Shown in pieces: positions 6,401 through 27,292 of a stretch of DNA of 64,000 nt. How positions within the stretch are numbered: the stretch's first letter is position 1; each line of letters opens with the position of its first letter. The notes under the pieces are model-generated. The model ran no database searches and was not told the DNA's origin. It saw nothing but the letters and a program-made list of their open reading frames with translations. Source of the stretch: Adhaeribacter radiodurans. Its GTDB lineage: Bacteria; Bacteroidota; Bacteroidia; Cytophagales; Hymenobacteraceae. Where the stretch lies: positions 6,324,001-6,388,000 of the forward strand of contig NZ_CP055153.1 in the NCBI RefSeq assembly GCF_014075995.1, in the 5' to 3' direction. Made by a program: the position numbers and the translations under genes.

Positions 6401-6806
6401 ACGCAATGCCTTAAAAGAACTAGAAAAACAAGGCGGTAAAGAAGGCAAGGGCACAAAAGAGGAGGGAAGTGAAGGTAACGGTGGTAAACTAGATAAATTA
6501 AATAAAATGATGGAACAATCCGAAACCGATCTCGTTAATAAACGACTTACGGAGCAAACCATTATGCGCCAACGCGAAATATTAACTCGTTTACTGGAAG
6601 CTGAGAAATCTGCCAGGGAACGAGAATTAGATAATAAACGGGAAGCACAATCTAGTAAGGAGTTGGCCCGAGCGGTACCACCATCGTTTGAAAAGTATAT
6701 TAAAAATAAGGAGAAACAAACAGAATTGCTGAAAACTATCTCTCCTGCTTTTACGCCTTATTACAAAAAAGAGGTAAATGAATATTTTCAGAAAATAGGA
6801 AAATAA
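3465..6806 (+). CDS. DUF4175 family large coiled-coil membrane protein
   Basis: 1113 aa. Two hydrophobic segments lie near the N-terminus (about 30-55 and 57-80) and a third near 155-175 (YVFIPVGLMLLVTLIYP). A domain of beta-rich character follows (about 190-500). From about 500 to 800 the protein is a Gln/Glu/Lys-rich coiled coil, followed by a Met/Gln-rich and Gly/Lys/Pro-rich stretch (about 905-945) and a charged C-terminus. This architecture matches DUF4175 proteins of Bacteroidota, whose function is unknown. The stop codon is 33 bp before the RsbW-like ATPase gene, so the two may be co-transcribed. Confidence 0.8.
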   Translation: MNQYVTMDAVLQHLQAFKKKFYLNLLIKGSIFSAALLLTFFLIYNLLEYFFYFPYYVRAFLFFSFLGIVVYAFLRWIFAPLSAFANFRKLLSDEQAAQKVGSYYPEIKDKLLNTIQLKDLSKTNDLIAASIEQKSHQLAGFKFDESVKLQENRPLLKYVFIPVGLMLLVTLIYPNLFVKGTERIINYKKYYAPEAPFEFIVQNKKLEAFRNEDFQLEVKLEGKTIPNELKIVYNGREQNLIPTKNNTYTYTFQKLQKPVAFQLAGSGFYSNEYTLHVLARPNLKDFDVKIEYPKYLQKKAEVINNTGNLTVPEGSIVTWNFATLATEQLKLAFTNPSSVLAATPEEDNFTVSKKISTTQEYEVRLKNQYSDNKDKMTFLVTAIPDRAPEITIESFQDSVGFDNLVLGGTVSDDYGLSRLNIHYRVITGNNPQPGNFKTIPLRLEPQQISQSYYHPWNIANLKLSPGQQLEYFVQVWDNDGIRGPKSARTRVLSLKIPSRNELNNEIASNAKSMQNQMSKSVQKAQKLKEQISQSEEKLKTKKELNWQDKKQIEDLLEKKKQLERDIATMRESFEQLNQKQDKVDEKSMELAEKTKQLQKLMEDLLDEETKKLYEELEKLLQQQMPNERELQKLLDKMDQKENNLEKELERALELFKQLQFEQKLESATDKLKELSEQQEKLAEKTEQKQAPNQELKQDQNELQQQFEDVKKELDELEKLNQELEDKNQMENTQQEENQIDQEMQNSQESLDKKQNKKAAQSQKNAAEQMQKMAQQMQQEAESNSMEEARQNLDHLRDILNNLIKLSFDQEELMKSFRSVSQSDPRFISLGQEQLKLKDDAKIIEDSLYSLAKKVFQIQSFVTREVGAMNNNITESLNQIKDRNVGKATMHQQLTMTSVNNLALMLNDALKQMQQQMAMAAQMQGKGKPKPGGKPKPGSGEMGKMQQMLNQKMEELKKSNLSGKALSEELAKLAAEQQRLRNALKELEKQGGKEGKGTKEEGSEGNGGKLDKLNKMMEQSETDLVNKRLTEQTIMRQREILTRLLEAEKSARERELDNKREAQSSKELARAVPPSFEKYIKNKEKQTELLKTISPAFTPYYKKEVNEYFQKIGK

Positions 6807-6811
6807 CTTTG
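6804..6811 (+). promoter_or_regulatory. Possible -7 promoter element overlapping the DUF4175 stop codon
   Basis: TAACTTTG fits the Bacteroidota -7 consensus TAnnTTTG and lies 28 bp before the ATG of the RsbW-like gene. I see no convincing TTTG at the -33 distance, so this is a weak call for an internal promoter. Confidence 0.3.
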
Positions 6812-6839
6812 CATAAATTAGCGCTATCAAATAACTATT

Positions 6840-7247
6840 ATGAATCAAATTAAAATTCAGATTCCTTCTCTCATTGAAAACATTCGCGTTGTAGAAAGTT
6901 TTATAGACAACTCGAAAGAAAAATTCCATATTGAAGATGACATTTACGGCAATATAATGGTAGCCGTTACGGAGTCTGTAAATAACGCTATTCGCCATGG
7001 TAATAAGTTTGATAAAGATAAAAACGTATACCTTTCTCTTTTTGTAGAGCCGGATTTGTTGAGGTTTGAAGTACAAGACGAAGGAAACGGTTTTGACGCT
7101 GATGCTTTAACGGATCCTACTGCCCCCGAGAATCTAGAAAACCCAGGTGGCAGAGGAATTTTCTTAATGCGCCATTTATGCGATGAAGTTAAATTTACAA
7201 ACGATGGACGTAATGTTCAATTGACATTTTACATTAATAATGCCTGA
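6840..7247 (+). CDS. RsbW-like ATP-binding protein (anti-sigma/serine kinase type)
   Basis: 135 aa, a stand-alone HATPase_c_2 domain. The N-box is seen in ESVNNAIRHGNK, the G1 box in VQDEGNGFD and the G2 box in GGRGIFLMRHL, as in RsbW/SpoIIAB-type kinases. Such proteins bind a sigma factor or phosphorylate an antagonist, but the partner is not in this neighbourhood. The 3' end overlaps ybeY by 8 bp, so translation is probably coupled. Being one of a DUF4175-ATPase-YbeY-MnmG run gives little hint of its target. Confidence 0.85.
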   Translation: MNQIKIQIPSLIENIRVVESFIDNSKEKFHIEDDIYGNIMVAVTESVNNAIRHGNKFDKDKNVYLSLFVEPDLLRFEVQDEGNGFDADALTDPTAPENLENPGGRGIFLMRHLCDEVKFTNDGRNVQLTFYINNA

Positions 7248-7674
7248 TATACCCATAGAATTTATATCCGAAGAAGTAGAATTTACTTTAAAGGATGTGG
7301 ATAAAGTAAAAAACTGGATTGCTCAAGTTATTGCAGAACATCAACTTATAATAGATAACATAACTTATATCTTTTGTTCAGACGAATACCTGTATAACAT
7401 AAACCAGACTTATCTTAACCACGATACTTATACCGATATAATAACTTTTGATAATTCGGATGAGGAAGACACAATAGAGAGCGACATATTTATAAGCATT
7501 GATCGGGTAAAAGAAAATGCTTCTCAATTAAACATACCATTTCAAGATGAACTACACCGTGTAATCATACACGGTGTTTTGCATTTAATTGGGTACGACG
7601 ATAAAGATGAAAGCAGTAAAGCCATAATGCGTCAAAAAGAAAACGACTACTTATCTTTACGGGATTTTAGTTAG
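7240..7674 (+). CDS. ybeY: Endoribonuclease YbeY (16S rRNA maturation)
   Basis: 144 aa, family length. Conserved segments are NQTYLNHDTYTDIITFD (about 55-71) and the metal motif HGVLHLIGYDD with His111 and His115. The classical motif ends in a third zinc-binding His (HGxLHLxGYDH); here that position is Asp121. From memory, an acidic residue is common there in Bacteroidota YbeY. YbeY acts in 16S rRNA 3' processing and ribosome quality control. The ATG overlaps the end of the upstream ATPase gene. Confidence 0.92.
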   Translation: MPDIPIEFISEEVEFTLKDVDKVKNWIAQVIAEHQLIIDNITYIFCSDEYLYNINQTYLNHDTYTDIITFDNSDEEDTIESDIFISIDRVKENASQLNIPFQDELHRVIIHGVLHLIGYDDKDESSKAIMRQKENDYLSLRDFS

Positions 7675-7700
7675 AACGGAATTTATTAAGGAAGATTGAG

Positions 7701-7716
7701 TGTTTCACGTGAAACA
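7701..7716. promoter_or_regulatory. parS: parS centromere site (ParB binding)
   Basis: TGTTTCACGTGAAACA is a perfect 16-bp palindrome identical to the near-universal bacterial chromosomal parS consensus. It lies in the 61-bp gap between ybeY and mnmG, 20 bp upstream of the mnmG ATG. ParB loads on parS and spreads, which organises and segregates the origin region. parS sites usually lie close to oriC. No parA/parB genes are in this window. Confidence 0.9.
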
Positions 7717-7735
7717 CATTTAAGTAAATACAATA

Positions 7736-9601
7736 ATGTACACCGAAAATTACGATGTAATTGTAGTAGGAGCCGGTCACGCAGGATGCGAAGCTGCTGC
7801 GGCTGCCGCCCGTATGGGTTCGAAAGTTTTGTTAGTAACTATGAACATGAACACTATTGCACAAATGTCATGTAATCCGGCAATGGGTGGAGTAGCAAAA
7901 GGTCAAATAGTTAGAGAAATTGACGCCTTAGGTGGCCAAAGCGGAATTGTTACAGATAAAACTATGATCCAATTCCGGATGCTAAATTTATCGAAAGGAC
8001 CAGCCATGTGGAGCCCCCGTGCACAAAGTGACCGCATGCGCTTCGCTGAAGAATGGCGTTTAAACTTAGAACAAACAGCTAACATCGATTTCTGGCAAGA
8101 AATGGCCTCAGCTATATTAGTAAATAATGGCAGAGTTGCAGGAATACAGACAGCTTTAGGAATTGAATTTAAATCAAATGCTGTAATACTAACAAATGGG
8201 ACCTTCTTAAATGGTATCATCCACATTGGAGAAAAACAATTTGGTGGAGGAAGGGCAGCAGAAAGGGCAGCTACCGGAATAACAGAACAATTAATTAATC
8301 TCGGCTTTGAAGCGGGAAGAATGAAAACAGGTACGCCGCCTAGAGTCGATGGAAGATCGTTGGATTACTCCAGAATGGAAGAACAAAAAGGAGACGAAAA
8401 CCCGTCTAAATTTTCCTATACGGATACTAAGCCATTGCAAGACCAACGTAGTTGTTATATAACTTACACCAGTACTAAAACCCATGAAATCCTAAAAACT
8501 GGCTTTGAAAAATCACCCATGTTTCAGGGAAGGATACAAGGTTTAGGCCCCCGCTATTGCCCTTCGATTGAAGATAAAATAAATCGGTTTGCGGATAAAG
8601 ACCGTCATCAGATTTTCGTAGAGCCGGAAGGATGGAGTACCGTGGAAATTTACGTAAATGGTTTTTCGAGTTCTTTACCCGAAGACGTTCAGTTTAAAGC
8701 TTTACGCTCGATAGCCGGGTTTGAAAATGCTAAAATGTTCCGCCCCGGTTATGCAATAGAATACGACTATTTTCCACCAACTCAATTGAAGCTAACTTTA
8801 GAAACAAAGTTAATAGAGAACTTATATTTTGCCGGCCAGATTAATGGTACTACTGGTTACGAAGAAGCGGCTTGTCAAGGATTAATGGCTGGTATAAATG
8901 CGCACAATAAAATCCATGAAAAAGAACACTTTATCTTAAAGCGTTCAGAAGCATATATAGGTGTATTAATTGATGATTTAGTAAATAAAGGTACTGAAGA
9001 ACCGTACCGAATGTTTACTTCGCGTGCGGAACATCGCATCTTATTACGCCAGGACAATGCCGATATCCGATTAACTAAAAAAGGGTACGATTTAGGGTTA
9101 GCAGACGAACAGCGCTTAGTTAAAGTAAATCGGAAAATTTCTGAAACAAAGGATATTATAGATTACTTAAATAATAAATCAATTGAACCAAGCGAGATTA
9201 ATGCTATTCTACAGGATCTAAATTCAGCGCCAATTTCGGAAAAAGTAAAAGCTGGTAATTTAATTAAACGGCCCAACGTAGATATACGCCACATTGCAGC
9301 AGCTTTGCCAGCAGTAGGTACTTATTTAAACAAATACTTACCCGAAAGCATAGAACAAGCATCAATCGCTGTTAAATATGCTAGTTACATTGATAAGGAA
9401 AATGTAATGGCTAACAGAATAGAAGAGTTGGAAAATTACATAATCAAAGAAAGATTGGATTACAAGAATATGCCCGCTCTATCGAAAGAAGCCCGTGAAA
9501 AACTACTCAAAATAAATCCTGAAACAATAGGTCAGGCTTCACGCATTAGTGGTGTTTCGCCAGCAGACATTTCGGTATTAATGGTGTATTTAGGCAAATA
9601 A
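7736..9601 (+). CDS. mnmG: tRNA uridine-5-carboxymethylaminomethyl synthesis enzyme MnmG (GidA)
   Basis: 621 aa, family length. The N-terminal FAD-binding loop GAGHAG is at 12-17. The MnmG signatures are [11 protein letters not shown] (about 270-280) and [17 protein letters not shown] (about 363-379), and the GCN-box-like C-terminal helical part ends normally. With MnmE it installs the cmnm5 group on U34 of several tRNAs, using FAD and methylene-THF. The methyltransferase gene starts immediately after its stop codon. A parS site precedes the gene, fitting the frequent closeness of gidA to chromosome origins. Confidence 0.97.
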
Positions 9602-10495
9602 ATGAATTACGAACGATTAAATCGTTGCCCCATTTGCAACAAAGACCTTTTAAAAAATTTCTTAATTGTAAAAGATAACTCTGTTTCGAAAGAAAGCTTT
9701 GTTATTGTACAATGCGAAAATTGTGGCTTTAAATTTACTAACCCCCGACCGGATGAAAATAGTATAGGGAAATATTATCAATCAGCAGAATATATTTCTC
9801 ATACGAATAAGGCTACTGGTATTACCAATAAGGCTTATAAGTTAGTTCGAACTTATACGATAAAGCAAAAGGTTGATTTAATAAATCGGTTCGCTCCTAA
9901 ATATACCTTACTTGACTATGGCTGCGGCACCGGAAATTTCCTGGAGGCTAGTAAGAAAGACGGGTGGTCAGTACAAGGTTATGAACCCAGCAGTGTAGCT
10001 CGCACGCAAGCGGAAGGATTATTACAGCAAACATTAGCAGCAGATGTAAGTGCCTTAGAACACATAGAAAACGAAAGTTTTCAAGTTATAACTTTATGGC
10101 ACGTACTCGAACATATCCACACTTTAAACGAAACTTTTAAAAAGCTTACTCAATTAACAAAGATTGGCGGCAACATTATTGTAGCAGTTCCTAATGCTGA
10201 CTCTCATGACGCCCAGGTTTATAAAGAGAACTGGGCTGCCTACGATGTTCCCCGACATTTATACCATTTTAATCAAGCTACAATGAAGCGTTTTTTTAAA
10301 AAGCACAAGCTTGAACTTTTAGAAATAATTCCGATGAAATTTGATGCTTATTATGTAAGTATGCTAAGCGAAAAATATCTTACTGGAAATAATGAATACA
10401 TAAAATCTGTCTTAAATGGTTTTAAATCGAATAATTATGCCAGTAAAAATGCTAACGATTATTCCAGTTTAATATATGTGGGTAAAAAGAACTAA
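9602..10495 (+). CDS. Class I SAM-dependent methyltransferase with N-terminal zinc ribbon
   Basis: 297 aa. The N-terminus has two cysteine pairs, CPIC (9-12) and CENC (about 38-41), forming a probable zinc ribbon. After it come the SAM-binding motif LLDYGCGTGNFLE (about 101-113) and a LWHVLEHI segment typical of Methyltransf_23/UbiE-like enzymes. Proteins of this shape often act on sugars or lipids of the envelope, but the substrate is not identifiable here. The ATG follows directly on the mnmG stop, so translation is coupled. Confidence 0.85.
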   Translation: MNYERLNRCPICNKDLLKNFLIVKDNSVSKESFVIVQCENCGFKFTNPRPDENSIGKYYQSAEYISHTNKATGITNKAYKLVRTYTIKQKVDLINRFAPKYTLLDYGCGTGNFLEASKKDGWSVQGYEPSSVARTQAEGLLQQTLAADVSALEHIENESFQVITLWHVLEHIHTLNETFKKLTQLTKIGGNIIVAVPNADSHDAQVYKENWAAYDVPRHLYHFNQATMKRFFKKHKLELLEIIPMKFDAYYVSMLSEKYLTGNNEYIKSVLNGFKSNNYASKNANDYSSLIYVGKKN

Positions 10496-10661
10496 TAGCA
10501 TTATTTATTCTATAATAAAGCATTTACTATTAATAACTTATAAATTTAATAAGTAGTAACCATTAGTAAATTATCCACATACAAGATATAAAAAGATTCT
10601 ATTAATAATAAACTAATCCAACTACATCATTTCTGTTGCTGATCAAGCAAGAACTCAAAGA
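10496..10661. other. AT-rich intergenic region with a perfect DnaA box
   Basis: This 166-bp gap contains TTATCCACA at 10571-10579, a perfect match to the DnaA-box consensus, in very AT-rich DNA. It lies between the methyltransferase and the Ig-like lipoprotein genes, about 1.7 kb from the larger cluster of DnaA-box-like sites. Confidence 0.6.
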
Positions 10662-12251
10662 ATGCATACATTAAAAAAAATTTTACCATCATTCTTTTTA
10701 TTATTTCTAACAAGTTGTGCCAGCATAAGCCCGCCGGAAGGAGGGGAGAAGGACATTAAAAGTCCGGAGTTAATAAGTAGTACCCCGGCCAATCAAGCAC
10801 TTAACGTAAAAGGTAAAACCATTATCTTAAAATTTAACGAAGAGGTGCGCACAAAAGACTTTAACCGACAACTTATTATTTCTCCAAACGCTGAAAATAC
10901 TATAAACACCCAAGTAGACAGGGAAGAAGTTAAATTAAGTTTTGAAAAGGATTTTGAACAGAATACTACTTACTTTTTAAATTTTAGAGAAGGTATAGAA
11001 GATATTACAGAAGGTAATAAACCTAAGAACTTGAGCTTAACCTTTAGTACCGGAGCTTTCTTAGATTCAGGTAGGGTACAAGGAATTGTAACTGATATAT
11101 TAACTGGCGAGCCGGCTAAAGATATCAATGTAATTTTATATGCAGCTAATGATACCGCCACCATCCGCAATGCCAAGCCATATTATTTAACCAAGACCGG
11201 AGAAGATGGTAGCTATTTATTACAGAATATAAAGTATGCTACGTATTTGCTCTATGCCCATCAGGATAAAAACAACGATAATATTTATAATGACGAAAAA
11301 GAGAAAATTGGGTATTTAGCTAACCCAATAGAAATAACGGCACAAACGCCTGCTCAAGACTTACAAATCATTCGGATAGATACCAAGGCTCCTTATATAA
11401 CATCTAAACAACCTTACTTAGACGAATACCACCTTAATTACAACGAAGGAATTACCTCTGTAAAAATTACTGGTGGTAATCCAAATGATGTTGCTACGCT
11501 TATAAGTGAAAACACTAAAACGGTGAGGCTATTTCCAAGTACTAATCAAATAAAAGGTAAGTATTTTATTACGGCTCTAGACTCAGCTGATAATGCAAAA
11601 ATAGATACCGTTGATTTAGCTTTTACCGGAAAAAAGGCAAAACGCAATTTATCTTTTCAGGTAATTAATCCTAGCACAAAAGTAAAACCCAATGAAACAA
11701 TACAATTTAAATTTGATGCTCCCTTGCAACTAAAAGAAGGGCCGCTGCTTACATTAGTTGAAGACTCGGCTGCTGCTAAACGACCTTTAAACTATCCTCA
11801 GGATATTAAATTGAATGACAGCCGTAATATTATAAGCTTCAACTTAAATACAAAAGCAAAAAATACGGTCGAGATACTAGCTGATACTACAGTAATATTA
11901 CCTATTTCAGGGGATAGATTTAAAAACCAAGCAACAAAACTCACGATCACCGATAAAGATCAAGGTGGTAGTATAGATTTAAAAATTAAAACTTCTTATA
12001 AAAAGTATTTTTTGGAGCTATTAGATAAAGATTATAAAGTTGTTAAAACTTACGATTCACCCAAAAATCTGTTGATAGAAGAACTACAACCAAATACTTA
12101 TCGTATTCGCGTAAAGATTGATGAGGATGAAAATGGCGAATGGCGTGGAGGTAACAAAGATCTAAAAACAATACCAGAAAAGGTATTCAATTATTTGAAA
12201 CCAATTGAGGTACGAGTAAATTGGTCGCAAGATGTACCAATAGAGTTTTAG
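10662..12251 (+). CDS. Ig-like domain lipoprotein (SbsA-type Ig and carboxypeptidase-regulatory-like domains)
   Basis: 529 aa. The signal sequence ends in a lipobox, LLFLTSCAS, followed by PPEGGEKD, the proline/glycine segment characteristic of a Bacteroidota surface-lipoprotein family. An SbsA-type Ig-like (Big_5) domain follows (SSTPANQALNVKGKTIILKFNEEV, about 39-62). A carboxypeptidase-regulatory-like beta domain starts near 145 (GRVQGIVTDILTGEPA). The rest is beta-rich. The likely place is the outer membrane, with a structural or binding role that cannot be read directly. ATG start at 10662; a strong terminator follows. Confidence 0.8.
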   Translation: MHTLKKILPSFFLLFLTSCASISPPEGGEKDIKSPELISSTPANQALNVKGKTIILKFNEEVRTKDFNRQLIISPNAENTINTQVDREEVKLSFEKDFEQNTTYFLNFREGIEDITEGNKPKNLSLTFSTGAFLDSGRVQGIVTDILTGEPAKDINVILYAANDTATIRNAKPYYLTKTGEDGSYLLQNIKYATYLLYAHQDKNNDNIYNDEKEKIGYLANPIEITAQTPAQDLQIIRIDTKAPYITSKQPYLDEYHLNYNEGITSVKITGGNPNDVATLISENTKTVRLFPSTNQIKGKYFITALDSADNAKIDTVDLAFTGKKAKRNLSFQVINPSTKVKPNETIQFKFDAPLQLKEGPLLTLVEDSAAAKRPLNYPQDIKLNDSRNIISFNLNTKAKNTVEILADTTVILPISGDRFKNQATKLTITDKDQGGSIDLKIKTSYKKYFLELLDKDYKVVKTYDSPKNLLIEELQPNTYRIRVKIDEDENGEWRGGNKDLKTIPEKVFNYLKPIEVRVNWSQDVPIEF

Positions 12252-12272
12252 TAATTATTACTAAAAACGGAG

Positions 12273-12300
12273 AAGGCCAGATATACATCTGGCCTTTTTT
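12273..12300 (+). terminator. Rho-independent terminator of the Ig-like lipoprotein gene
   Basis: Arms AAGGCCAGAT (12273-12282) and ATCTGGCCTT (12287-12296) form a perfect 10-bp stem with a 4-nt loop, followed by T residues to 12300. It lies 22 bp after the stop codon. Confidence 0.92.
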
Positions 12301-12762
12301 ATTAACTTATAACTTGTGGAAAAGATATTAGCAACATGTGATTAATCTACTCTTAAAATTCTGGATCAGGCTTGAGCCAAGAATTAAAACTTAGAAAGTG
12401 GAAAATACACTATTAAGTCGGTACTTAAATTTACCTTATTCACTTGTTAAAAAGTACAAACTTTTAGTTAGTAAAAGAAAGTGGAAATGTGGAAACAATA
12501 ATATTATAATTGATAATCAATAAATTATTTTAAAAATATTAGTTAATAACTAGCTATGGCAAGTGGAATAAAGAGCAAAGCTGTGTAAAAAGTAGAATAA
12601 ATATTTTTATCCACTTATTAACAGGTATAACAACGAAGATTTAAATATTTAAGAAAGAATTTTAATTTTAATATTAGTTAATTAAAAATGTGGAAAAAGG
12701 GAAAAGTTTTAAAATATAGCTTCATTTAAAAATTTCTCGTAAGAGAAAACAAAAATTATTAT
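12301..12762. other. AT-rich region with a cluster of DnaA-box-like sites (candidate replication origin)
   Basis: No gene is seen. By hand count G+C is only about one fifth over 12421-12720. DnaA-box-like 9-mers (consensus TTATCCACA or its complement TGTGGATAA) are TGTGGAAAA at 12315 and 12689 (8/9), TTATCCACT at 12607 (8/9), TGTGGAAAC at 12488 (7/9), AGTGGAAAA at 12397 (7/9), TTATTCACT at 12436 (7/9) and AGTGGAAAT at 12480 (6/9). Together with the parS site 4.6 kb upstream, mnmG, and perfect boxes at 10571 and 13828, this suggests an oriC or an origin-linked DnaA-binding region. It is inference. The plus-strand genes to its left point towards it, which is not the usual arrangement. Confidence 0.45.
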
Positions 12763-13257
12763 ATGGCTTTTGATTATACCATAGCTTTTAAAACAACTGA
12801 TTTTCGGAAGAATCCGGAATTGTATCGGGTTGGAAAAGGTGAGCAAGGTGTATTGTTAATAGAGCCGTATAAATCTGAAATCCTTCCTTACTGGCGCTTC
12901 AAAACTCCTGACATAGCACTGCAATCTTCAGAAAAAATTTATTCTCTGTTTTTGGATTACTTAGAAAGGAATGAGTTTGTAGGCGCAGATATGGCTCGAA
13001 AATTTTTACAAATGGGATTTACGCGATCCAGGCGATATGCTAACCATAAATCCGGTCGGAAGTTTAAGCAAAATCCCCAGAATGAAGTGGATAAAGAGTC
13101 AGAGAAAATTGCCCGGCAGAAATATTTGTTACCTATAGAACAGGATAGTGTAAAAGCTGCTTCTGCAGAAATATTTAAAGAAAAGTGGATGCTGGCCAAA
13201 AACAATGAGAAATATCTAACTCTTATGGCTGAACATAAACAGAAATATGGTTTATAA
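12763..13257 (+). CDS. DUF4385 family protein
   Basis: 164 aa, near full length for DUF4385. Recognisable family segments are FDYTIAFKTTDFRKNPELYR, GKGEQGVLLIEPYKSEILP and FVGADMARKFLQMGFTRSRR. The protein is soluble and basic towards the C-terminus, with no signal peptide. The function of the family is unknown. The gene follows the AT-rich DnaA-box-like region, with its ATG at 12763, and the small acidic protein gene begins 65 bp after its stop. Confidence 0.88.
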   Translation: MAFDYTIAFKTTDFRKNPELYRVGKGEQGVLLIEPYKSEILPYWRFKTPDIALQSSEKIYSLFLDYLERNEFVGADMARKFLQMGFTRSRRYANHKSGRKFKQNPQNEVDKESEKIARQKYLLPIEQDSVKAASAEIFKEKWMLAKNNEKYLTLMAEHKQKYGL

Positions 13258-13321
13258 GATTAAGTATTAATAAAAATTTCACATAATATATTTGCTAAAT
13301 AAACCTACTAATAACGGAATT

Positions 13322-13789
13322 ATGAAAGAAAATGAAATAGAATTGGGTAATGGAATAAGTAACATTTACTTTGGCTTTACCATGGACCAGGTGAAAGATA
13401 TAATGGGTGAGCCGGAAGAAATTGAAGAATCAGACGAAGATGATGAGTTTGAACATAAAGCTTTTAACTACTGGGAGAAAGGATATTCTTTTTTCTTCGA
13501 CCGCGAAGATGATTATCGATTAAGTTGCATTCAGACCGAAAATGAAGATGTACGGCTATTTAACACAAACGTATTTCAAAAATCTACTAAAGAAATAGAA
13601 GAATTGCTGCAGCAAAAAGGTTTAACTAATTACGAAACCGAAAAACTTGAAACTGGTGAAGTTAGATGGTCTTTTGAACAAGAAATGCTGGACTTGTACT
13701 TTGAAAACGATAGATTAATCGCCATTAATTTTGGAGTGTTTATAAATGATGATTTAGAGGTACAGTGGCCATCAGAAAATCAGGTATAA
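13322..13789 (+). CDS. Small acidic hypothetical protein, 155 aa
   Basis: The frame can be extended to a TTG at 13292, but ATG 13322 (MKENEIELGNG) is preferred because a GGA lies shortly before it. The protein is strongly acidic (an EEIEESDEDDEFE run near residues 33-45). The segment YFGFTMDQVKDIMGEPEEI resembles the short repeat-start found in SmpA/OmlA-like and some immunity-type proteins, where a G-x-T-x-x-x-V-x-x-x-x-G-x-P pattern is common. I cannot assign a function. It ends just before a long hairpin terminator. Confidence 0.7.
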   Translation: MKENEIELGNGISNIYFGFTMDQVKDIMGEPEEIEESDEDDEFEHKAFNYWEKGYSFFFDREDDYRLSCIQTENEDVRLFNTNVFQKSTKEIEELLQQKGLTNYETEKLETGEVRWSFEQEMLDLYFENDRLIAINFGVFINDDLEVQWPSENQV

Positions 13790-13809
13790 TAATCAATATA
13801 AAAAAGCAT

Positions 13810-13857
13810 TAAGCATAAAAAAAGCCGTTATCCACATAACGGCTTTTTTTATGCTTA
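13810..13857. terminator. Bidirectional terminator with a perfect 22-bp stem enclosing a DnaA box
   Basis: Arms 13810-13831 and 13836-13857 are perfect inverted repeats around a CCAC loop, with seven A residues in one arm and seven T in the other. This works as a terminator for both the acidic-protein gene (+) and the phosphate transporter gene (-). TTATCCACA, a perfect DnaA-box 9-mer, spans the loop at 13828-13836. Confidence 0.93.
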
Positions 13858-13869
13858 TATGAATTAACA

Positions 13870-15276
13870 TTAAATAGCCCAGCGGAATATTAGAAAAAGT
13901 GTTCCAGCCAAAAACATAGATACGGGTAAGGTTAATACCCAAGCCAAAGCAATATTGCGGATGGTGCCCGGATTAAGGTTCCGAATACCTTTATTAGCCA
14001 CCATACTACCTGCAATACCTGATGAAAGAATATGGGTAGTACTTACCGGTAGTTTAAAAATGAATGTGGAAAAGCCAATAACACTCGCAGCCATTAATTC
14101 AGCCGAAGCTCCCTGGGCATAGGTTAAATGTTCTTTGCCGATCTTTTCGCCAATTGTTTTAACAATTCGTTTCCAGCCAATCATGGTTCCGCAACCTAAC
14201 GACATGGCAATCATTAAAATTACCCAATCTGGCGCATAATCAGTAAAGGACCTAAGGGTACTGATATTTTCTTTTAAAATATTGCGGTCGGTTTGGCTAA
14301 GGGCAATTCCAGGGCTGGTCAATATCTTTTCTGAACCTTTCGCCAATAATAAAATATCCCGGCGAATTAAAAAACGGCTTTTCTTAGGTAAATCATTGAT
14401 TGTTTTAACTGATGCAAAAAGACGATGCAAATCAATAGCCTCATCTTTCATTTCAGCTACTACCTCCGTATCTACTTTCGATAGAACTGCGGTATCTATT
14501 CGGTTAATCGTTTGTTCTACCTGCGCCAGCGAAGCTTGCATCACTAACGGGTTTTTGCTGTTATCAAGGGCAAAGAAAGAAGGAACAATTCCAATTAATA
14601 TTAACATTACTAAACCTACGCCTTTTTGCCCATCGTTGGACCCGTGGAAAAAAGATACCAGAGTACAAGTTAAAATCAAAATTAATCGGATCCAAAGGGG
14701 TGGTGGTTTCCGCTTATGCGGCTGCCGGAAAATAGCTTTGTTTTTAACGAACCGTTTTAAAATAAACATTAAAAAGACTGTTAAAGTAAAGCCTAAAAAT
14801 GGGGATACAATCAGGGACGCACCTGTTTTTACGGCTTCATCCCAGTTTACTGCAGCACCGGAGGAATTATCGGGTAACAAGGAAAAAGCTACGCCTACGC
14901 CCAAAATAGAACCAATTAAGGTATGTGAGCTAGATGATGGTAAACCATAATACCAGGTTCCTAAATTCCAGAGGATAGCGCTTAAAAGTAAAGCTCCAAT
15001 CATTGCAATACCATGATAAACATTCTGGTCAATGAGCGCTTCTACGGGTAGCAAGTAAACAATTCCCATAGCTACGCCAATGCCGCCGGCAAATACCCCA
15101 ATAAAGTTCCAGAAAGCGGACCAGACTACAGCTACCCAGGGCCGGAGCGTATTGGTATAAATAACAGTTGCAACGGCGTTGGCAGTATCATGAAAACCAT
15201 TAACGAATTCAAAAGCGCAAGCCGCTAGCAAACAAAGAAAAAGGAGGAGCAGAAGGTGAGTTTCTAATCCGAACAT
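13870..15276 (-). CDS. PiT family inorganic phosphate transporter
   Basis: 468 aa, about ten or more membrane segments. The two PHO4-type repeats are visible: GFHDTANAVATVIYT near the N-terminus with the following SSSSHTLIGSILG, and HGSNDGQKGVG (about 210-220) with the later STTHILSSGIAGS. The hydrophilic stretch between about 245 and 325 is the usual cytoplasmic loop. PiT proteins import phosphate with a cation at the inner membrane. No PhoU-like (DUF47) gene is adjacent. The gene is convergent with the acidic-protein gene and divergent from glyS. Confidence 0.93.
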   Translation of the reverse strand: MFGLETHLLLLLFLCLLAACAFEFVNGFHDTANAVATVIYTNTLRPWVAVVWSAFWNFIGVFAGGIGVAMGIVYLLPVEALIDQNVYHGIAMIGALLLSAILWNLGTWYYGLPSSSSHTLIGSILGVGVAFSLLPDNSSGAAVNWDEAVKTGASLIVSPFLGFTLTVFLMFILKRFVKNKAIFRQPHKRKPPPLWIRLILILTCTLVSFFHGSNDGQKGVGLVMLILIGIVPSFFALDNSKNPLVMQASLAQVEQTINRIDTAVLSKVDTEVVAEMKDEAIDLHRLFASVKTINDLPKKSRFLIRRDILLLAKGSEKILTSPGIALSQTDRNILKENISTLRSFTDYAPDWVILMIAMSLGCGTMIGWKRIVKTIGEKIGKEHLTYAQGASAELMAASVIGFSTFIFKLPVSTTHILSSGIAGSMVANKGIRNLNPGTIRNIALAWVLTLPVSMFLAGTLFLIFRWAI

Positions 15277-15476
15277 ACAGGTTGGTTGAGGTTGGATAAA
15301 ATTGTCCGCAAAATTAAAGTAATTTGCCGCGGCTATTGTTAAGGAATTGTTAAATCAAGCTAAGTAAGTACGAACTTTACAAATATTCCATCACAAATTT
15401 TAAAATATTTAAACTAAAACGACGCATATAAATAAGATTCATTCAATTCCTATAATTTTTCTTTGGTTTATCTACA

Positions 15477-15505
15477 TTTGGCTCCGTTCTAAATTTCTAT
15501 ATTTG
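15477..15505 (+). promoter_or_regulatory. Bacteroidota-type promoter of the glycyl-tRNA synthetase gene
   Basis: TTTG at 15477-15480, a 17-bp spacer and TATATTTG at 15498-15505 match the Bacteroidota sigma-A pattern TTTG / TAnnTTTG. The ATG of glyS is at 15511, only 5 bp after the -7 element, so transcripts from this promoter would have almost no leader. Confidence 0.6.
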
Positions 15506-15510
15506 CGGTT

Positions 15511-17013
15511 ATGGCAACACAATCAGAAAAATCTTCTTTAGAAAGCACACAATTAAAAGATATTATTTCGCACGCCAAAGAATACGGCTTTGTTTTTCCG
15601 AGCAGCGAGATTTACGATGGGCTACAAGCCGTTTACGATTACGGACAAAATGGGGTAGAATTAAAAAACAATATTAAAAATGTTTGGTGGAAGTGCATGA
15701 CCCAACTCAATCAAAATGTAGTGGGCATTGATGCTGCCATTTTTATGCACCCGGATACCTGGAAAGCCTCGGGCCACGTAGATTCTTTCAACGATCCTAT
15801 GATCGATAACAAAGATTCGAAGAAGCGTTACCGGGCCGATGTGTTGATAGAAGACCGGGCAGCGCAGTACGAAAAAGAAGGACAGCCGGAAAAAGCAAAA
15901 GAACTGGTACAACAGATGGCTCGCCTGCTTGAAGCCGAAGATTTGAGCGGCGTACAACAACTAATTATAGCGGAGAAAATCACGTGCCCCGTTTCCGGAA
16001 CTGCCAACTGGACCGAAGTACGCCAATTTAATTTAATGTTTTCGACGCAAACCGGATCGGTAGCCGATGAATCTACTACTATTTACCTGCGGCCCGAAAC
16101 AGCGCAAGGTATTTTTGTAAATTTCTTAAATGTGCAAAAAACCGGCCGCATGAAAATTCCGTTCGGGATTGCGCAAATTGGTAAAGCTTTCCGGAATGAG
16201 ATTGTAGCCCGCCAGTTCACTTTTAGAATGCGGGAATTTGAGCAAATGGAAATGCAATTCTTTATTCGGCCTGGTACCGAGATGGAATGGTACGAGTATT
16301 GGAAAGCAGTACGAATTAAATGGCACCAAGCATTAGGCACACCCGCCGAAAAGTTACGTTTCCACGACCACGAAAAGTTAGCGCACTACGCGAATGCTGC
16401 AGTAGATGTGGAGTATGAATTCCCGTTTGGTTTTAAAGAAGTAGAAGGCATTCATTCCCGCACTGATTTTGATTTATCGCAACACCAAGCCTTGTCTAAG
16501 AAAAAGCAACAGTATTTTGATAATGATCTGAATGCGGAAGGCAAGCCTTACGGAAATTACGTGCCTTATGTGATTGAAACTTCGGCTGGTGCCGATCGCT
16601 TATTCTTAATGACTTTGTGCAATGCCTATACCGAAGAAGAAGTAACGGAAGGCGATAGCGTTAAAACCAGAACTTTTTTAAAATTACATCCTGTTTTAGC
16701 TCCGGTAAAAGCTGCTATTTTCCCGTTGGTTCGCAAAGACGGTTTACCTGAAAAAGCGCTGCAAATATTCGATGACTTGAAGTTTGATTTTAATATAATC
16801 TACGAAGAGCGGGATGCTATTGGTAAACGCTACACCCGACAGGATTTAATAGGTACGCCATTTTGCATTGCCGTGGATTATGAAACTTTAGAAAATGATA
16901 CAGTTACCGTTAGGGACCGGAATTCGCGGGAACAAAAACGGATGCCAATCAGTGAATTAAAAAATTACATTGGTGAGGCAGTAAGTTTAAAACGTATTTT
17001 TGAAAAACTGTAA
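15511..17013 (+). CDS. glyS: Glycyl-tRNA synthetase (single-chain, class II)
   Basis: 500 aa, the single-chain alpha2 type found in Bacteroidota, archaea and eukaryotes rather than the split GlyQ/GlyS type. Class II motifs are seen: YLRPETAQGIFVNF (about 192-205), motif 2 AFRNEIVARQFTFRMREFEQ (about 227-246) and the glycine-rich motif 3 region ETSAGADRLFLM (about 355-366). The C-terminal anticodon-binding domain runs from about 395 to the end. The enzyme charges tRNA-Gly. The gene is monocistronic: its own promoter lies in front and a strong hairpin behind. Confidence 0.96.
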   Translation: MATQSEKSSLESTQLKDIISHAKEYGFVFPSSEIYDGLQAVYDYGQNGVELKNNIKNVWWKCMTQLNQNVVGIDAAIFMHPDTWKASGHVDSFNDPMIDNKDSKKRYRADVLIEDRAAQYEKEGQPEKAKELVQQMARLLEAEDLSGVQQLIIAEKITCPVSGTANWTEVRQFNLMFSTQTGSVADESTTIYLRPETAQGIFVNFLNVQKTGRMKIPFGIAQIGKAFRNEIVARQFTFRMREFEQMEMQFFIRPGTEMEWYEYWKAVRIKWHQALGTPAEKLRFHDHEKLAHYANAAVDVEYEFPFGFKEVEGIHSRTDFDLSQHQALSKKKQQYFDNDLNAEGKPYGNYVPYVIETSAGADRLFLMTLCNAYTEEEVTEGDSVKTRTFLKLHPVLAPVKAAIFPLVRKDGLPEKALQIFDDLKFDFNIIYEERDAIGKRYTRQDLIGTPFCIAVDYETLENDTVTVRDRNSREQKRMPISELKNYIGEAVSLKRIFEKL

Positions 17014-17047
17014 AACAGCACCGAACTAAATTTTATTTTATTCATAT

Positions 17048-17088
17048 AAAACAAAAAACCAAGCCTTTACGGTTTGGTTTTTTGTTTT
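17048..17088. terminator. Terminator after glyS, probably bidirectional
   Basis: Arms 17048-17065 and 17071-17088 pair over 18 bp (one G-T wobble) around a TTTAC loop, with A-rich and T-rich outer parts. It lies 34 bp after the glyS stop and 49 bp beyond the end of the convergent lipoprotein gene. Confidence 0.88.
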
Positions 17089-17136
17089 GAAGAGAAACAC
17101 AATCAACAATAAAGATTCTTTAAACGGACTTTAATA

Positions 17137-17787
17137 TCAACCAATTTCCACAATTCCTAAGATTAAAGCCAAGGCGGCAGCAACTACTGCAATACCCAGC
17201 ACCACACCCAATACGGGCCCGATAATTGGCAAAGAAAGTAAAGCTATTAACAATAAAGCAGCTCCCACAATAATAAGAACTTTAGCTTCGGTGGATAAGT
17301 TTGTTTGCGGCTTGTCAAAAGAAACTACTACTTTGTCGCCGTCTTTTTCAGTTCTTACCGAATTTTTAAGGCCTTCTACCTCGTTGCGCAGTTCATCTAC
17401 TTTCTTCTCGTTGGTTTTAATAGTAACCCGTTCCCGCTTTTTAGTAGTATCTAGCACGGCTTCTAAGCGTTTTTTTAATTTTTTTAATTCTTTAGGGGTA
17501 AACTTCGGTATAACTACTTTTTGCGTAATTTCTTTTTCCTTGTTTGTTTCCGCAGCAATAGTTACTTCATTTTTCAACTGGGCACTTAAATCGGTGTTTG
17601 GTATATCAGGGGTACCATGTGCCGTTATCGTATTATTCTTCGGTTGATTGGTTTTATAAGGATCGTTGAAAGAACCGGTACCTTTTGCGAAAAAGTAAGG
17701 TTGAGAAGTAGAGCAACTGCTAAAAGCTAGAGCTATTACCAAAAAACATAGATTTATTAGTAAGCCAGAAAAAGATTTTGATTTCAT
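17137..17787 (-). CDS. Small membrane-associated lipoprotein, 216 aa
   Basis: The longest frame starts at 17850, but ATG 17787 (MKSKSFSGLLINLCFLVIALAFSSCST) gives a clean lipoprotein signal with lipobox AFSSC, so that start is used. The middle part (about 75-150) is charged and Lys-rich with heptad-like spacing. The C-terminus has two hydrophobic segments (VLIIVGAALLLIALLSLPII and VLGVVLGIAVVAAALALIL). A lipoprotein with a C-terminal hydrophobic hairpin is a common unnamed Bacteroidota type. Function unknown. Confidence 0.72.
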   Translation of the reverse strand: MKSKSFSGLLINLCFLVIALAFSSCSTSQPYFFAKGTGSFNDPYKTNQPKNNTITAHGTPDIPNTDLSAQLKNEVTIAAETNKEKEITQKVVIPKFTPKELKKLKKRLEAVLDTTKKRERVTIKTNEKKVDELRNEVEGLKNSVRTEKDGDKVVVSFDKPQTNLSTEAKVLIIVGAALLLIALLSLPIIGPVLGVVLGIAVVAAALALILGIVEIG

Positions 17788-18451
17788 AGTTGTAAGTAAA
17801 TTAATAAGTGGGTGCAAAAGTAACAGTTTCTGGATGCCCAAGAGAAGCAAAATGCATAAGTGAAACGGAAGAGTAGCTTAATTTTATTTGTCTGACTACA
17901 AAAAAATTAAAAAAGTCTCCTAAAAGTGAGCTGGGTAATAGCTACTTATTGTTGAAAAAATATGTTAACTCAGGTGATATTCCAGATAATAATATCTTCA
18001 GCAGTAATTCCTTACATGTTTCTTTATTATTTATAAGCAAGAATTATCAACTGATTAAAGTTCTTCCAATTAGATCAGGTTTATTGGGGAATGTTCGAGT
18101 TAATTGCAGGTTATATTTTTTAGATTATGTAGGTAAAGCTTATTTATACAGATTAAGTTGGTTTTACTACACTTATTATCAGTATAATTTGCACATCTTC
18201 GGTTTTGTTGTTTGGCTTTCTTATTTTTGTCAGCGTAAAGCTAAAAACGAAAAATGTCCGGATTACATCCTGTTTTTATTCTGGCCTTTATAGCTTTACA
18301 AAACTAATTTGATTCTACTGCCTTTAATCAGCCATAGAGAAAATGAAGAATTACCCACGAGTAGAGCAGAATGATTTTTTAATCAAAGTAAAAAAAATCG
18401 ATCTAACATTTTAGAACCAAAACAGAAGTAGATTTAAAGTTTAATATAGCA
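17788..18451. other. Long intergenic region before ileS, no confident gene
   Basis: This 664-bp stretch is AT-rich. It holds one open frame of 114 codons from a TTG at 17949, but its composition (many Tyr, Phe, Leu) and lack of any recognisable motif make it a poor gene candidate. I see no tRNA, T-box or clear promoter. Confidence 0.5.
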
Positions 18452-21400
18452 GTGAAGTATAGCGAGTACAAGAACCTGGATTACGCCAAATTAGCCGAAG
18501 AAGTGCTAACCCGGTGGAATCAAAACAAGATATTTGAAAAATCGGTAGAGACGCGGGCAGGTAAAACGCCCTTTGTTTTCTATGAAGGACCACCTTCTGC
18601 CAATGGTGCCCCCGGTATTCACCACGTCATGGCCCGGGCTGTAAAAGATATTTTTTGCCGATACAAAACTTTAAAAGGATTTCAGGTTAACCGTAAAGGT
18701 GGCTGGGATACGCATGGTTTGCCTATCGAGCTTCAGGTAGAAAAAGAATTGGGCATTACTAAAGAAGATATTGGTAAGAAAATTTCCATCGAGGATTATA
18801 ATACCCGTTGCCGCGAAACTGTGATGCGCTACAAGAGCCAATGGGACGATCTTACCCAGAAAATGGGTTATTGGGTCGATCTGGATAATCCGTATATCAC
18901 CTTTGAAAACGATTACATTGAATCTATCTGGGCGCTTCTGAAAAAGCTGTACCAAAAAGGCTTTTTGTATAAAGGCTATACCATTCAACCGTATTCGCCA
19001 TCTGATGGTACTGGGCTAAGTTCGCACGAACTTAATCAGCCAGGCTGCTATAAAGAAGTAAAAGATACCTCCATTGTAGCCCAGTTTAAAGTAATAAAAG
19101 ATTCTAAATCGGAATTTCTTTTCACGGAACCTAAAGGTGATGTCTATATACTGGCCTGGACTACTACCCCCTGGACCTTACCCTCCAACACCGCTTTAGC
19201 TATTGGTGATAAAATAACTTATGTGCAGGTAAATACTTTTAATGCCTATACGCATAAACCGGTAAGTGTGGTTCTTGCCAAAGAACTGCTAGGAAAGTAC
19301 TTCTCCGAAAAAAATAAAAATTTAAAAATTTCGGATTACAAGCCCGGCGATAAAGCTATTCCTTTTGAGATTGTGCAGGAATTTACGGGTAAGCAATTAG
19401 TGGGCATTCGGTATGAACAATTAATGCCTTACCTGCAACCATTCTACGATACCGATAAAGCTTTTCAGGTAGTTGCCGCCGACTTTGTTACCACTTCCGA
19501 CGGTACCGGCGTGGTGCATACCTCACCCACTTTTGGTGCCGATGACTTTAGGATTGCTAAACAGCAAGGTATTCCGGCATTAACTATAAAAGATGAACTA
19601 GGTAATGAGTTGCCTACCGTGGATAGACGCGGAAAATTCATCGACGAAATTGGGGTAAAGTTGCTGGAAGGTGTTGAAAAGTACAAGATCAAAACCCACA
19701 AAGTACTTGGTATTGATGACTTTTACGTAAAAAATTACACCAACGAAGATGAAAGCCATCCGGATTTTAAAACCACGGATGTTATTATCTCCATCATCCT
19801 GAAAGAAGAAAATAAAGCCTTTAAGGTTGAAAAATACGAGCACACCTATCCACATTCCTGGCGAACAGATAAACCGGTTTTATATTATCCACTGGATGCC
19901 TGGTTTATTAAAACTACGGCGGTAAAAGATCGGTTAGTAGAGTTAAACAAAACCATCAACTGGAAACCAGAATCTACCGGATCAGGTCGTTTTGGTAATT
20001 GGCTCGAAAACCTGGTTGATTGGAATTTGTCGCGCTCGCGTTATTGGGGTACACCTTTACCCATCTGGCGTACCGAAGAAGGCGATGAAGAAATCTGCAT
20101 TGGCTCCGTGGCAGAGTTACAAGCCGAGGTGGATAAAGCAGTTGTAGCTGGAGTAATGGAACAAACTGTGATTTCAGAAATGGATCTGCACCGGCCGTAT
20201 GTGGATAACATAGTGCTGGCTAGTAAATCAGGTAAGCCCATGCGCCGCGAGCCCGACTTAATTGATGTTTGGTTTGATTCCGGGGCTATGCCGTATGCCC
20301 AATGGCATTACCCTTTCGAGAACCAAGAAACCTTTAAGCAAAACTTCCCGGCTGATTTTATTGCAGAAGGCGTAGACCAAACCCGTGGTTGGTTCTTTAC
20401 CCTACACGCCATAGCGGTAATGCTGGAAGACAGCGTAGCATTTAAAAATGTAATGGCCAATGGTTTGGTACTCGATAAAAACGGCAATAAAATGAGCAAG
20501 CGCTTAGGCAATGCCGTTGATCCGTTCGCCACCATTAACACCTACGGTCCGGATGCGACTCGTTGGTACATGATTTCGAATGCGCCACCTTGGGATAATT
20601 TAAAATTTAATACCGATGGCATTGTGGAAGTACAACGCCGTTTCTTTGGGACACTCCAGAATACATATTCTTTCTTTGCCTTATATGCCAACCTGGATAA
20701 CTTTTCTTACGCCGAAGCGGATGTACCTTTAGAAAACCGTACCGAAAGCGACCGGTGGATAATCTCGAAGTTAAATTCTTTAGTGGCCATAGTGGATGCG
20801 GCATACGCCGATTACGACCCTACTAAAGCTACCCGCGCCATCCAGGATTTTGTGAGCGATGATTTAAGTAACTGGTACGTGCGCCTAAACCGCAAGCGTT
20901 TCTGGAAAGGGGAATACAACGAAGATAAAATTGCCGCTTACCAAACGCTTTATACTTGCCTCGAAAAAGTAGCTTTATTGGCCGCCCCAGTAGCGCCTTT
21001 CTACATGGATCAGTTGTTCTTAGATTTAAACAAGGTTTCTGGTAAAAATCCGGTGGAGTCGGTGCATTTAGCCGATTATCCACAGGTATCTGAATCAGCG
21101 ATTGATGCTGGCTTAGAAGAACGCATGCAGTTGGCGCAAACCGTATCGTCGCTGGTGCACTCACTCCGGAAAAAAGAAACTATTAAAGTTCGGCAGCCAT
21201 TATCGCGTATTTTAATTCCGGTACTTAACGAAAAAACCAGGCAGCAAATACAAGCTGTAGCTGATTTGATTCTCTCGGAAGTTAACGTGAAAGTCATTGA
21301 ATACATTGATGATACTTCCGGTATTTTGGTAAAGAAAATTAAGCCGAATTTTAAAAAATTAGGTCAGGTTTTTGGTCCCCGGTTAAAAGAAGTAGCCGCG

Positions 21401-21853
21401 GCTATCCAGAAAATGAACCAGGAAGACATTAGTAAACTGGAAAAAGAAAATGGTTTTGAAATTAAATTGGGCAACGATCCTGTAACTATAACACCCGAAG
21501 ATGTGGAAATTTCTTCGGAAGACATTCCTGGTTGGCTCGTAGCTTCTGAAGGTAAATTAACAGTGGCTTTAGATATTACCTTAACAGAAGAGTTAAAGCA
21601 AGAAGGTATTGCCCGCGATTTAGTAAACCGGATACAAAATTTACGGAAAGATAGCGGCCTGGATGTACAGGATCGGATCCGGATTTCGTTACAAAATAAT
21701 AATGCCGAAGTGAATGCAGCCGTGCAAGCGTTTGAGAAGTATATCAGCGAAGAAACCCAGGCTACCGATGTGCAATTACTCGAAATAATTGCAGGCGGAA
21801 CCGCCTTAGAAATTGACGAATATACCCTTACGGCTAAGTTAGAAGTAGTTTAA
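18452..21853 (+). CDS. ileS: Isoleucyl-tRNA synthetase
   Basis: 1133 aa, the long IleRS type. The start is a GTG at 18452; no in-frame ATG occurs upstream, and the protein begins in the family way (KYSEYKNLDYAKLAEEVL). The HIGH-type motif reads NGAPGIHHVMAR (about 51-62) rather than the usual HxGH. KMSKR is the second ATP-binding motif (about 681-685). The editing domain (CP1) runs about 200-430. Tryptophan-rich GWDTHGLP and DQTRGWFF segments are typical. It charges tRNA-Ile and hydrolyses Val-tRNA-Ile. lspA follows 119 bp later, a common pairing. Confidence 0.96.
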   Translation: MKYSEYKNLDYAKLAEEVLTRWNQNKIFEKSVETRAGKTPFVFYEGPPSANGAPGIHHVMARAVKDIFCRYKTLKGFQVNRKGGWDTHGLPIELQVEKELGITKEDIGKKISIEDYNTRCRETVMRYKSQWDDLTQKMGYWVDLDNPYITFENDYIESIWALLKKLYQKGFLYKGYTIQPYSPSDGTGLSSHELNQPGCYKEVKDTSIVAQFKVIKDSKSEFLFTEPKGDVYILAWTTTPWTLPSNTALAIGDKITYVQVNTFNAYTHKPVSVVLAKELLGKYFSEKNKNLKISDYKPGDKAIPFEIVQEFTGKQLVGIRYEQLMPYLQPFYDTDKAFQVVAADFVTTSDGTGVVHTSPTFGADDFRIAKQQGIPALTIKDELGNELPTVDRRGKFIDEIGVKLLEGVEKYKIKTHKVLGIDDFYVKNYTNEDESHPDFKTTDVIISIILKEENKAFKVEKYEHTYPHSWRTDKPVLYYPLDAWFIKTTAVKDRLVELNKTINWKPESTGSGRFGNWLENLVDWNLSRSRYWGTPLPIWRTEEGDEEICIGSVAELQAEVDKAVVAGVMEQTVISEMDLHRPYVDNIVLASKSGKPMRREPDLIDVWFDSGAMPYAQWHYPFENQETFKQNFPADFIAEGVDQTRGWFFTLHAIAVMLEDSVAFKNVMANGLVLDKNGNKMSKRLGNAVDPFATINTYGPDATRWYMISNAPPWDNLKFNTDGIVEVQRRFFGTLQNTYSFFALYANLDNFSYAEADVPLENRTESDRWIISKLNSLVAIVDAAYADYDPTKATRAIQDFVSDDLSNWYVRLNRKRFWKGEYNEDKIAAYQTLYTCLEKVALLAAPVAPFYMDQLFLDLNKVSGKNPVESVHLADYPQVSESAIDAGLEERMQLAQTVSSLVHSLRKKETIKVRQPLSRILIPVLNEKTRQQIQAVADLILSEVNVKVIEYIDDTSGILVKKIKPNFKKLGQVFGPRLKEVAAAIQKMNQEDISKLEKENGFEIKLGNDPVTITPEDVEISSEDIPGWLVASEGKLTVALDITLTEELKQEGIARDLVNRIQNLRKDSGLDVQDRIRISLQNNNAEVNAAVQAFEKYISEETQATDVQLLEIIAGGTALEIDEYTLTAKLEVV

Positions 21854-21972
21854 AAACTAGGTAATTTTTTGATAATTAGCTGTGATGGGAATTATGTATG
21901 GGTAAAATTGTTTAAGTTTAGTAATTATATCTGTTTATATAGTTCCCAGTCGCTTTTAGTAAAATTTAGTAA

Positions 21973-22644: not shown

Positions 22645-22661
22645 CAGATTCAAATATTTAT

Positions 22662-22704
22662 AAAGCAAAGAAGCCATACTTCATAGTATGGCTTCTTTGC
22701 TTTT
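22662..22704 (+). terminator. Rho-independent terminator of the ileS-lspA unit
   Basis: A perfect 19-bp stem, arms 22662-22680 and 22685-22703 around a TCAT loop, ends in a T-run. It lies 17 bp after the lspA stop. The A-rich 5' arm could also stop transcription from the other side. Confidence 0.92.
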
Positions 22705-22961
22705 ACAGTAATTTATGTTCTACTTAATAGTTGTAGGATGGCACCTCAATAACCTAATCAAAAGAATTTCAATCGTTATCTTAAACGAATTTACTATTTT
22801 ACCTTTCAGATTTAGTATTATCTGTATAATGATTGATACCAGTTTAAAATGTTAGTTTGGAAATACTATTTAAACTATTCATAATAGTAAGAGTAATATA
22901 GATTAAGTTTTAATTAAATCCGGAACCTAGCTTTTTGCAACAACAGAATTTACGCGCTTCA
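22705..22961. other. Intergenic region before the ABC ATPase gene
   Basis: 257 bp of AT-rich DNA between the lspA terminator and the ABC transporter gene; with the terminator the gene-free stretch is 317 bp. I see no additional gene or clear promoter pair. Confidence 0.5.
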
Positions 22962-27280: not shown

Positions 27281-27292
27281 AAAGTAATTACC

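Follow-up and report, generated by a model that had tools for sequence, protein, structure and literature searches.

A predicted replication origin and a surrounding zone of DnaA boxes near mnmG in Adhaeribacter radiodurans

Where replication of the Adhaeribacter radiodurans chromosome begins is a question posed by an intergenic gap of 511 bp with 23.9% G+C (12252..12762), situated between the gene of a Big_5 (Ig-like) protein and a DUF4385 gene. Positions refer to the window, i.e. the whole 64-kb stretch of DNA analysed (C2:6324001-6388000), which belongs to a contig of 6,799,362 bp in a genome of 2 contigs; this contig was assumed to be one circular chromosome. The preliminary description had proposed the gap as a candidate origin and the present analysis supports that interpretation: judged from its sequence, the gap is very probably the chromosomal origin, oriC, on account of its box density, its helix instability, the only perfect parS of the genome nearby, a regional turn of the GC skew and a cluster of DnaA boxes that 30 of 38 genomes share at this gene junction.

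Boxes and helix stability in the gap

When compared with the DnaA box TTATCCACA, the gap contains three sites with at most one mismatch (12315, 12607 and 12689, each agreeing at 8 of 9 positions) and eight further sites agreeing at 7 of 9, which makes 11 boxes with at most two mismatches, and no perfect box is present inside it. None of 500 dinucleotide shuffles of the gap reached three boxes with at most one mismatch (mean 0.15) and none reached 11 with at most two (mean 1.9), so that the cluster of imperfect boxes described earlier lies well above chance. A ranking by the latter count covering 1.66 Mb of the organism's own chromosome (24%) placed the gap first of 32,504 overlapping 500-bp segments, the runner-up having 8 boxes, and first among the 695 of these that are AT-rich, where the second had 7; the earlier concern that other AT-rich gaps might be just as rich in boxes is thereby removed.

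Calculations with nearest-neighbour energies located both the least stable 60 bp (12493..12552, a candidate DNA unwinding element) and the least stable 200 bp (12497-12696) of the 64-kb window in the gap, next to the boxes, while at the 100-bp scale the gap ranks second, narrowly behind a stretch at 10511. A hairpin that resembles a terminator, with a T run after it (12273..12296, plus strand, fold -10.7 kcal/mol, z -6.26), stands between the genes on the left, ending with Big_5, and the boxes of the gap.

An alignment of the gap with those of three congeners gave a mean column identity of 72% and revealed seven invariant box cores; this box-by-box comparison covers the four sequences, three further congeners, G001, G002 and G004, having been aligned apart. 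From left to right the first box is TTTTCCACA (12315..12323, minus strand), which is invariant in all four, followed by the box-like sites TTTTCCACT (12397..12405, minus), with an invariant GTGG core, TTATTCACT (12436..12444, plus), of which TTATTCAC is invariant, and GTTTCCACA (12488..12496, minus), where ATGTGGA is invariant and the preceding AGTGGAAA keeps GTGG in three of the four sequences. On the other side of the putative unwinding element follow TTTTACACA (12582..12590, minus), with GTGTAAA invariant, and the pair TTATCCACT and TTATTAACA (12607..12623, plus), overlapping by one base, the former invariant and the latter partly conserved, with AT-rich sequence directly after it. The last box is a second copy of TTTTCCACA (12689..12697, minus), of which AAATGTGGAAA is invariant. 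Scans of the 64-kb window with Rfam, at the gathering threshold, and for tRNA genes gave no match.

Place on the chromosome and in related genomes

The gap lies 4.5 kb from a parS site, TGTTTCACGTGAAACA (7701..7716), the only perfect match to the parS consensus in the genome, and this site and mnmG (gidA; 7736..9601, plus strand, TIGR00136, 849 bits) are indeed close by, as had been noted before. Sites with one or two mismatches to parS number 19 in the genome, seven of them at 6.12-6.60 Mb.

The GC skew was negative in 25 of the 27 stretches between 2.575 and 6.144 Mb and positive in 34 of the 37 outside this range (64 stretches of 16-20 kb, the boundary being chosen on the data and 20 later stretches excluded). 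Both the raw and the orientation-corrected minimum, searched over 6.06-6.63 Mb, fall at 6.209 Mb. A turn fits best at 6.211 Mb, 125 kb to the left of the gap. Masking of the repeat-rich gene array at 6.216-6.302 Mb gave a 2-log-likelihood interval of 6.180-6.328 Mb, and the gap, at 6.3363 Mb, falls 8 kb beyond it. The skew minimum thus agrees only roughly with the position of the gap: a turn from negative to positive is present in the region but misses the gap by 8 to 125 kb.

A run of large plus-strand genes, one of them with many repeats, occupies C2 ~6214481-6304000 (L040, L044, L045 and L046), and the skew there is strongly positive, 0.105 to 0.171 in three stretches; origin calling by skew is distorted by these genes. 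A second origin candidate was considered at the skew minimum itself, 6.21 Mb, where five of seven box-like matches checked fall within a gene that encodes a repeat protein of 1496 aa, and one falls just after that gene. By eye, these words derive from the GDK repeats of the protein, and because of this and of the distorted skew the candidate was rejected.

The other skew turn, at the resolution of the samples, is located at 2.528-2.577 Mb and encloses the sole perfect match to the dif core (C2:2551266-2551284, 2.551 Mb). The core used for this search was that of E. coli; allowing two mismatches, 151 matches were obtained against 131 for the reversed control. The dnaA gene (C2:3183577-3184062, 3.184 Mb) is 0.63 Mb from the dif-like site; its distance to the gap is 3.15 Mb, which amounts to 46% of the chromosome. 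In 13 relatives with dnaA and mnmG on a shared large contig, taken as circular, the two genes are ~0.76 to 2.8 Mb apart. The preliminary description was right that no dnaA gene is near, and it had counted this against an origin; as an objection it loses its force, since oriC is commonly far from dnaA in Bacteroidetes, as reported in PMC4755523.

The search of related genomes comprised 39, including the one studied here, and both mnmG and the Big_5 gene (PF13205; 10662..12251, plus strand, in the window) are present in all of them; G025 and G029 have the two genes on separate contigs, and in G037 a distance of ~140 kb separates them. With the exception of G007, which is fragmented, the Big_5 region was compared in all relatives (37) and in the own genome, genomes that the labels of the search tool assign to genera and families (genera g1 to g6 within the family, the own genome in g1). 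A junction was called significant when at most 1 of 200 shuffles reached its number of boxes with at most two mismatches in the 900 bp after Big_5. This comparison with relatives, suggested in the preliminary description, revealed significant clusters in 30 of 38 genomes, namely in 22 of the 24 that belong to the family and in 8 of the 14 from the order's other families; those without one are G005 (7/200), G018 (28), G025, G027, G029 (16), G031, G033 (12) and G037. In G016, G020, G024, G028, G032 and G034 the same 900 bp hold 12 to 19 boxes with at most one mismatch. When boxes were pooled, the peak was in the first kb after Big_5 in every grouping, 8.8-fold in g1, g2, g3 and g6, 33-fold in g4 and g5 and 15.5-fold in the other families. 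The predicted origin is consequently found at a conserved place, and in most genomes examined the 3' end of the Big_5 gene marks it.

The gene to the right, DUF4385 (12763..13257, plus strand, PF14328), is the neighbour of the predicted oriC in g1, g4 and g5. It was considered as a conserved marker and rejected, as it is not beside Big_5 in g2, g3 and g6. These rearrangements also bear on whether the gap, which does precede a gene, is a DnaA-regulated promoter instead of an origin. At nine of nine loci where DUF4385 is away from Big_5, no box with at most one mismatch is found in the gap upstream of DUF4385, and the Big_5 junction in most of these genomes still shows a significant cluster. (One further locus, L084, was left out of this count because a spurious ORF shortens its gap; at the Big_5 junction of the genome concerned, G011, seven boxes with at most one mismatch are present.) As parS, the instability and the regional skew turn also fit an origin, the promoter explanation is highly improbable. 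In a separate scan of named genomes DUF4385 was found at 59 loci, according to their titles 38 in cyanobacteria, 14 in Firmicutes, 6 in Bacteroidota and 1 in a record titled as a Rickettsia typhi MAG, which may be mislabelled.

A parS site is located 31-37 bp before mnmG in 13 of the 16 genomes of g1, g2, g3 and g6 (the exceptions being G001, G002 and G009) and none was found within the examined stretch in any of the eight genomes of g4 and g5, while 7 of the 14 genomes of other families have at least one within the stretch. A tree of 35 MnmG sequences joins g4 and g5 in one supported group.

DnaA boxes in the surrounding genes

Boxes are not confined to the gap. A zone at 6113..28863 contains 32 boxes with at most one mismatch, 26 of them inside genes, a spread over ~30 kb of mostly coding DNA that the preliminary description had missed. 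Eight are perfect (7296, 10571, 13828, 20200, 21076, 23435, 23855 and 24374), i.e. six more in the window than the two, at 10571 and 13828, that had been pointed out; TTATCCACA occurs 39 times in the genome, and eight of these occurrences are within 17.1 kb here. The perfect box at 13828 is part of a strong hairpin (13815-13852, z -9.1) that resembles a bidirectional terminator and in which it makes up the loop and the inner stem; it may for that reason not be an oriC element. In the zone (6-29 kb of the window) the box density is 7.5 times that of distant stretches, a value reached by none of 399 permuted 9-mers, the closest being an overlapping shifted copy of the box (7.2) and the next 3.1. 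An unsupervised k-mer count gave the box core GTGGATAA as the most enriched 8-mer (15 against 0.5); when pooled 8-mers were compared with their own reversal other words came up, with no DnaA box among the 12 listed.

The zone was followed to about +31 kb in 20 relatives, the left flanks to about -9 kb only. In g1 (seven genomes with the own) and in g2, g3 and g6 (eight genomes) the excess extends from about -6 to +22/+24 kb and is mostly coding and patchy, several 2-kb bins being near background, e.g. +2 to +4 kb; g1 has an additional bump at +28 kb. In the six genomes of g4 and g5, 85 of 116 boxes are 0 to 4 kb after Big_5, 12 are at -8 to -2 kb, a slight excess of 3.0- to 4.7-fold, and beyond +4 kb a total of 19 is near background. 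Once the 900 bp are set aside, every one of the 24 genomes of the family still has more boxes in its flanks than dinucleotide shuffles give, by a factor of 1.7 to 9.2 (1.7 to 6.4 in g4 and g5, a range that counts boxes just past 900 bp); in the other families the factor is 1.7 or lower for 13 genomes out of 14 (G031 and G036 with shorter flanks). The exception, G032 (L136), combines a dense origin cluster with a zone-like excess of 4.6-fold and is perhaps an independent case. An excess around oriC and beyond oriC itself, as expected of a titration zone, is thus found.

The richness of the coding clusters suggests another possibility, that initiation has moved into, or is shared with, those in ileS (18452..21853, plus strand, TIGR00392; seven boxes, two perfect) and in the gene of an oligopeptide-type ABC transporter ATPase (22935..24776, plus strand; four boxes, three perfect), the intergenic origin being weaker. 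With at most one mismatch allowed, the densest 1-kb run of boxes is in ileS, with five against four for the 1-kb segment starting in the gap, one of which sits in DUF4385; moreover, the own gap lacks a perfect box, and in g1 the bin of the origin (6.3) is matched or exceeded by three (6.4, 7.6 and 7.4) of the five bins of 2 kb that lie between +6 and +16 kb. The gap nevertheless comes first once boxes with two mismatches are counted, it has the least stable 60 and 200 bp and its boxes are kept at 72% mean column identity, which makes an origin within these genes improbable.

A second pooled peak, 6.5-fold, was observed over parS and the start of mnmG, with boxes at most 60 bp from the mnmG start in 4 of 16 genomes (G004, G012, G017 and G021). 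These boxes would fit a role of the boxes around oriC in segregation, with DnaA near parS helping to move the origins, by analogy with Caulobacter, where DnaA is reported to act at parS boxes (PMC6399470). Such a role appears unlikely, if less so than the two alternatives above, as the zone extends to +24 kb on the side opposite parS and in G003 no box lies closer than 1.5 kb to mnmG.

To separate box content from protein sequence, synonymous codons were shuffled inside each gene so that the protein and the codon counts were preserved. The 16 genes of the own zone contain 25 boxes against 9.1 after shuffling and 6 perfect boxes against 0.85 (0 of 1000 shuffles reaching either number), while the remaining 25 genes of the window have 5 against 6.5. 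For ileS alone the numbers are 7 and 2.6, with 2 of 300 shuffles reaching 7. Over the 15 genomes with a zone, which are related and hence not independent, 262 coding boxes were counted against 104 (the largest of 200 shuffles giving 128) and 58 perfect ones against 7.6 (largest 17); in every one of them at most 4 of 200 shuffles reached its count of all boxes, and G012 has no perfect coding box. In the six genomes of g4 and g5 there are 19 coding boxes against 14.4 (largest shuffle 23), G024 by itself being marginal (6/200). The ratio of observed to shuffled boxes, 2.47, compares with a mean of 0.96 and a maximum of 1.52 for 40 permuted motifs. The excess accordingly goes beyond base composition and protein sequence, and the coding boxes are apparently kept through the choice of synonymous codons.

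These results weigh against the coding boxes being by-products of conserved protein motifs or of base composition; as a full explanation the protein motifs are ruled out by the synonymous shuffles, and the reading as a whole is improbable, the ratio in distant own genes being as low as 0.65. What speaks for it is that the ABC transporter gene is marginal by itself (4 boxes against 1.8, 26 of 300 shuffles reaching 4) and that, among 76 box positions in eight zone genes, 7 are common to at least 10 genomes, the other 69 being common to fewer. In the ABC transporter gene one box position is occupied in 14 of the 15 genomes and another in all 15, and some conserved coding boxes may coincide with conserved protein motifs. 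The distant own ORFs (868 kb) hold 143 boxes against 220 after shuffling, with permuted motifs at 0.92 (sd 0.16), a deficit that is a hint of avoidance away from oriC.

Pooled over the 15 genomes, 146 boxes are on the plus and 168 on the minus strand to the right of oriC, and 43 and 29 to the left, so these counts do not show the lagging-strand preference reported for E. coli; this has no bearing on titration itself.

Proposed function and relation to known systems

In the mechanism that the anatomy of the locus suggests, DnaA would bind the conserved boxes on either side of the AT-rich centre (12493-12696) and open it, after which the helicase would be loaded and two forks would leave; the new origins would be segregated by ParB/ParA, acting through the parS at a distance of 4.5 kb. 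The additional boxes across ~30 kb, mostly in coding DNA, would bind free DnaA. At the speed of a fork the copying of the zone would fall within a minute or so of initiation. Replicated this soon, its boxes would leave less DnaA per origin, hindering immediate re-initiation and delaying the next round. We rate the chance that the surrounding boxes are such a local DnaA-titration zone as about even. The DnaA AAA+ profile, which Hda also matches, has a single match in the own genome, so no Hda-like regulator is seen by that profile; its apparent lack would make titration more useful without proving it.

Non-origin boxes that could control free DnaA are known from datA, DARS and the DnaA-box clusters of B. 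subtilis. Here the boxes are scattered mostly through genes, at positions of which 69 of 76 are common to fewer than 10 genomes, in contrast to datA and DARS, which are described as non-coding regions (PMC4585315). The closest parallel is E. coli and Salmonella, where boxes are reported to be in excess not only in oriC but also in the region around it, from centisome 98 to 5 (~7% of the chromosome) and above permuted motifs, and where, in E. coli, single-protein tracking adds evidence for titration (PMC12371093). The excess described here differs in that it covers ~30 kb (0.4%) at 7.5-fold, that the codon tests support it and that two of the family's genera have a compact cluster largely in its place. 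The best reading of the locus is a predicted origin with a putative local titration zone, which would be a novel form of the enrichment known from E. coli.

Within Bacteroidota, oriC has been located at mnmG with Ori-Finder in a Flavobacteriaceae genome (PMC12843772), and a DnaA-box locus at the skew turn with dnaA far off has been reported (PMC4755523), both of which resemble the present case. Unlike in these reports, the anchor found here, over 38 genomes, is the 3' end of the Big_5 gene, two genes after mnmG, and the surrounding zone of boxes is not mentioned in the available parts of the two papers. A literature search of titles and abstracts found no such zone in Bacteroidota, which is weak evidence of absence.

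Tentatively, and with somewhat less assurance than for titration itself, we suggest that the control of initiation is split within one family, an intergenic origin of weak boxes with a ~30-kb titration landscape written in the synonymous codons of housekeeping genes standing against a sister lineage largely without it and with strong boxes in a compact origin, the two architectures being evolutionary alternatives. The genera of the family would then allow titration and compact-origin control to be compared as in a natural experiment. If the origin prediction is true, the Big_5 junction would be a simple marker of oriC for members of this order, in which the position of dnaA says little about it. 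The zone may help to set how often copying starts and, if so, codon choice near the origin would encode, beyond the protein, how much DnaA is supplied locally.
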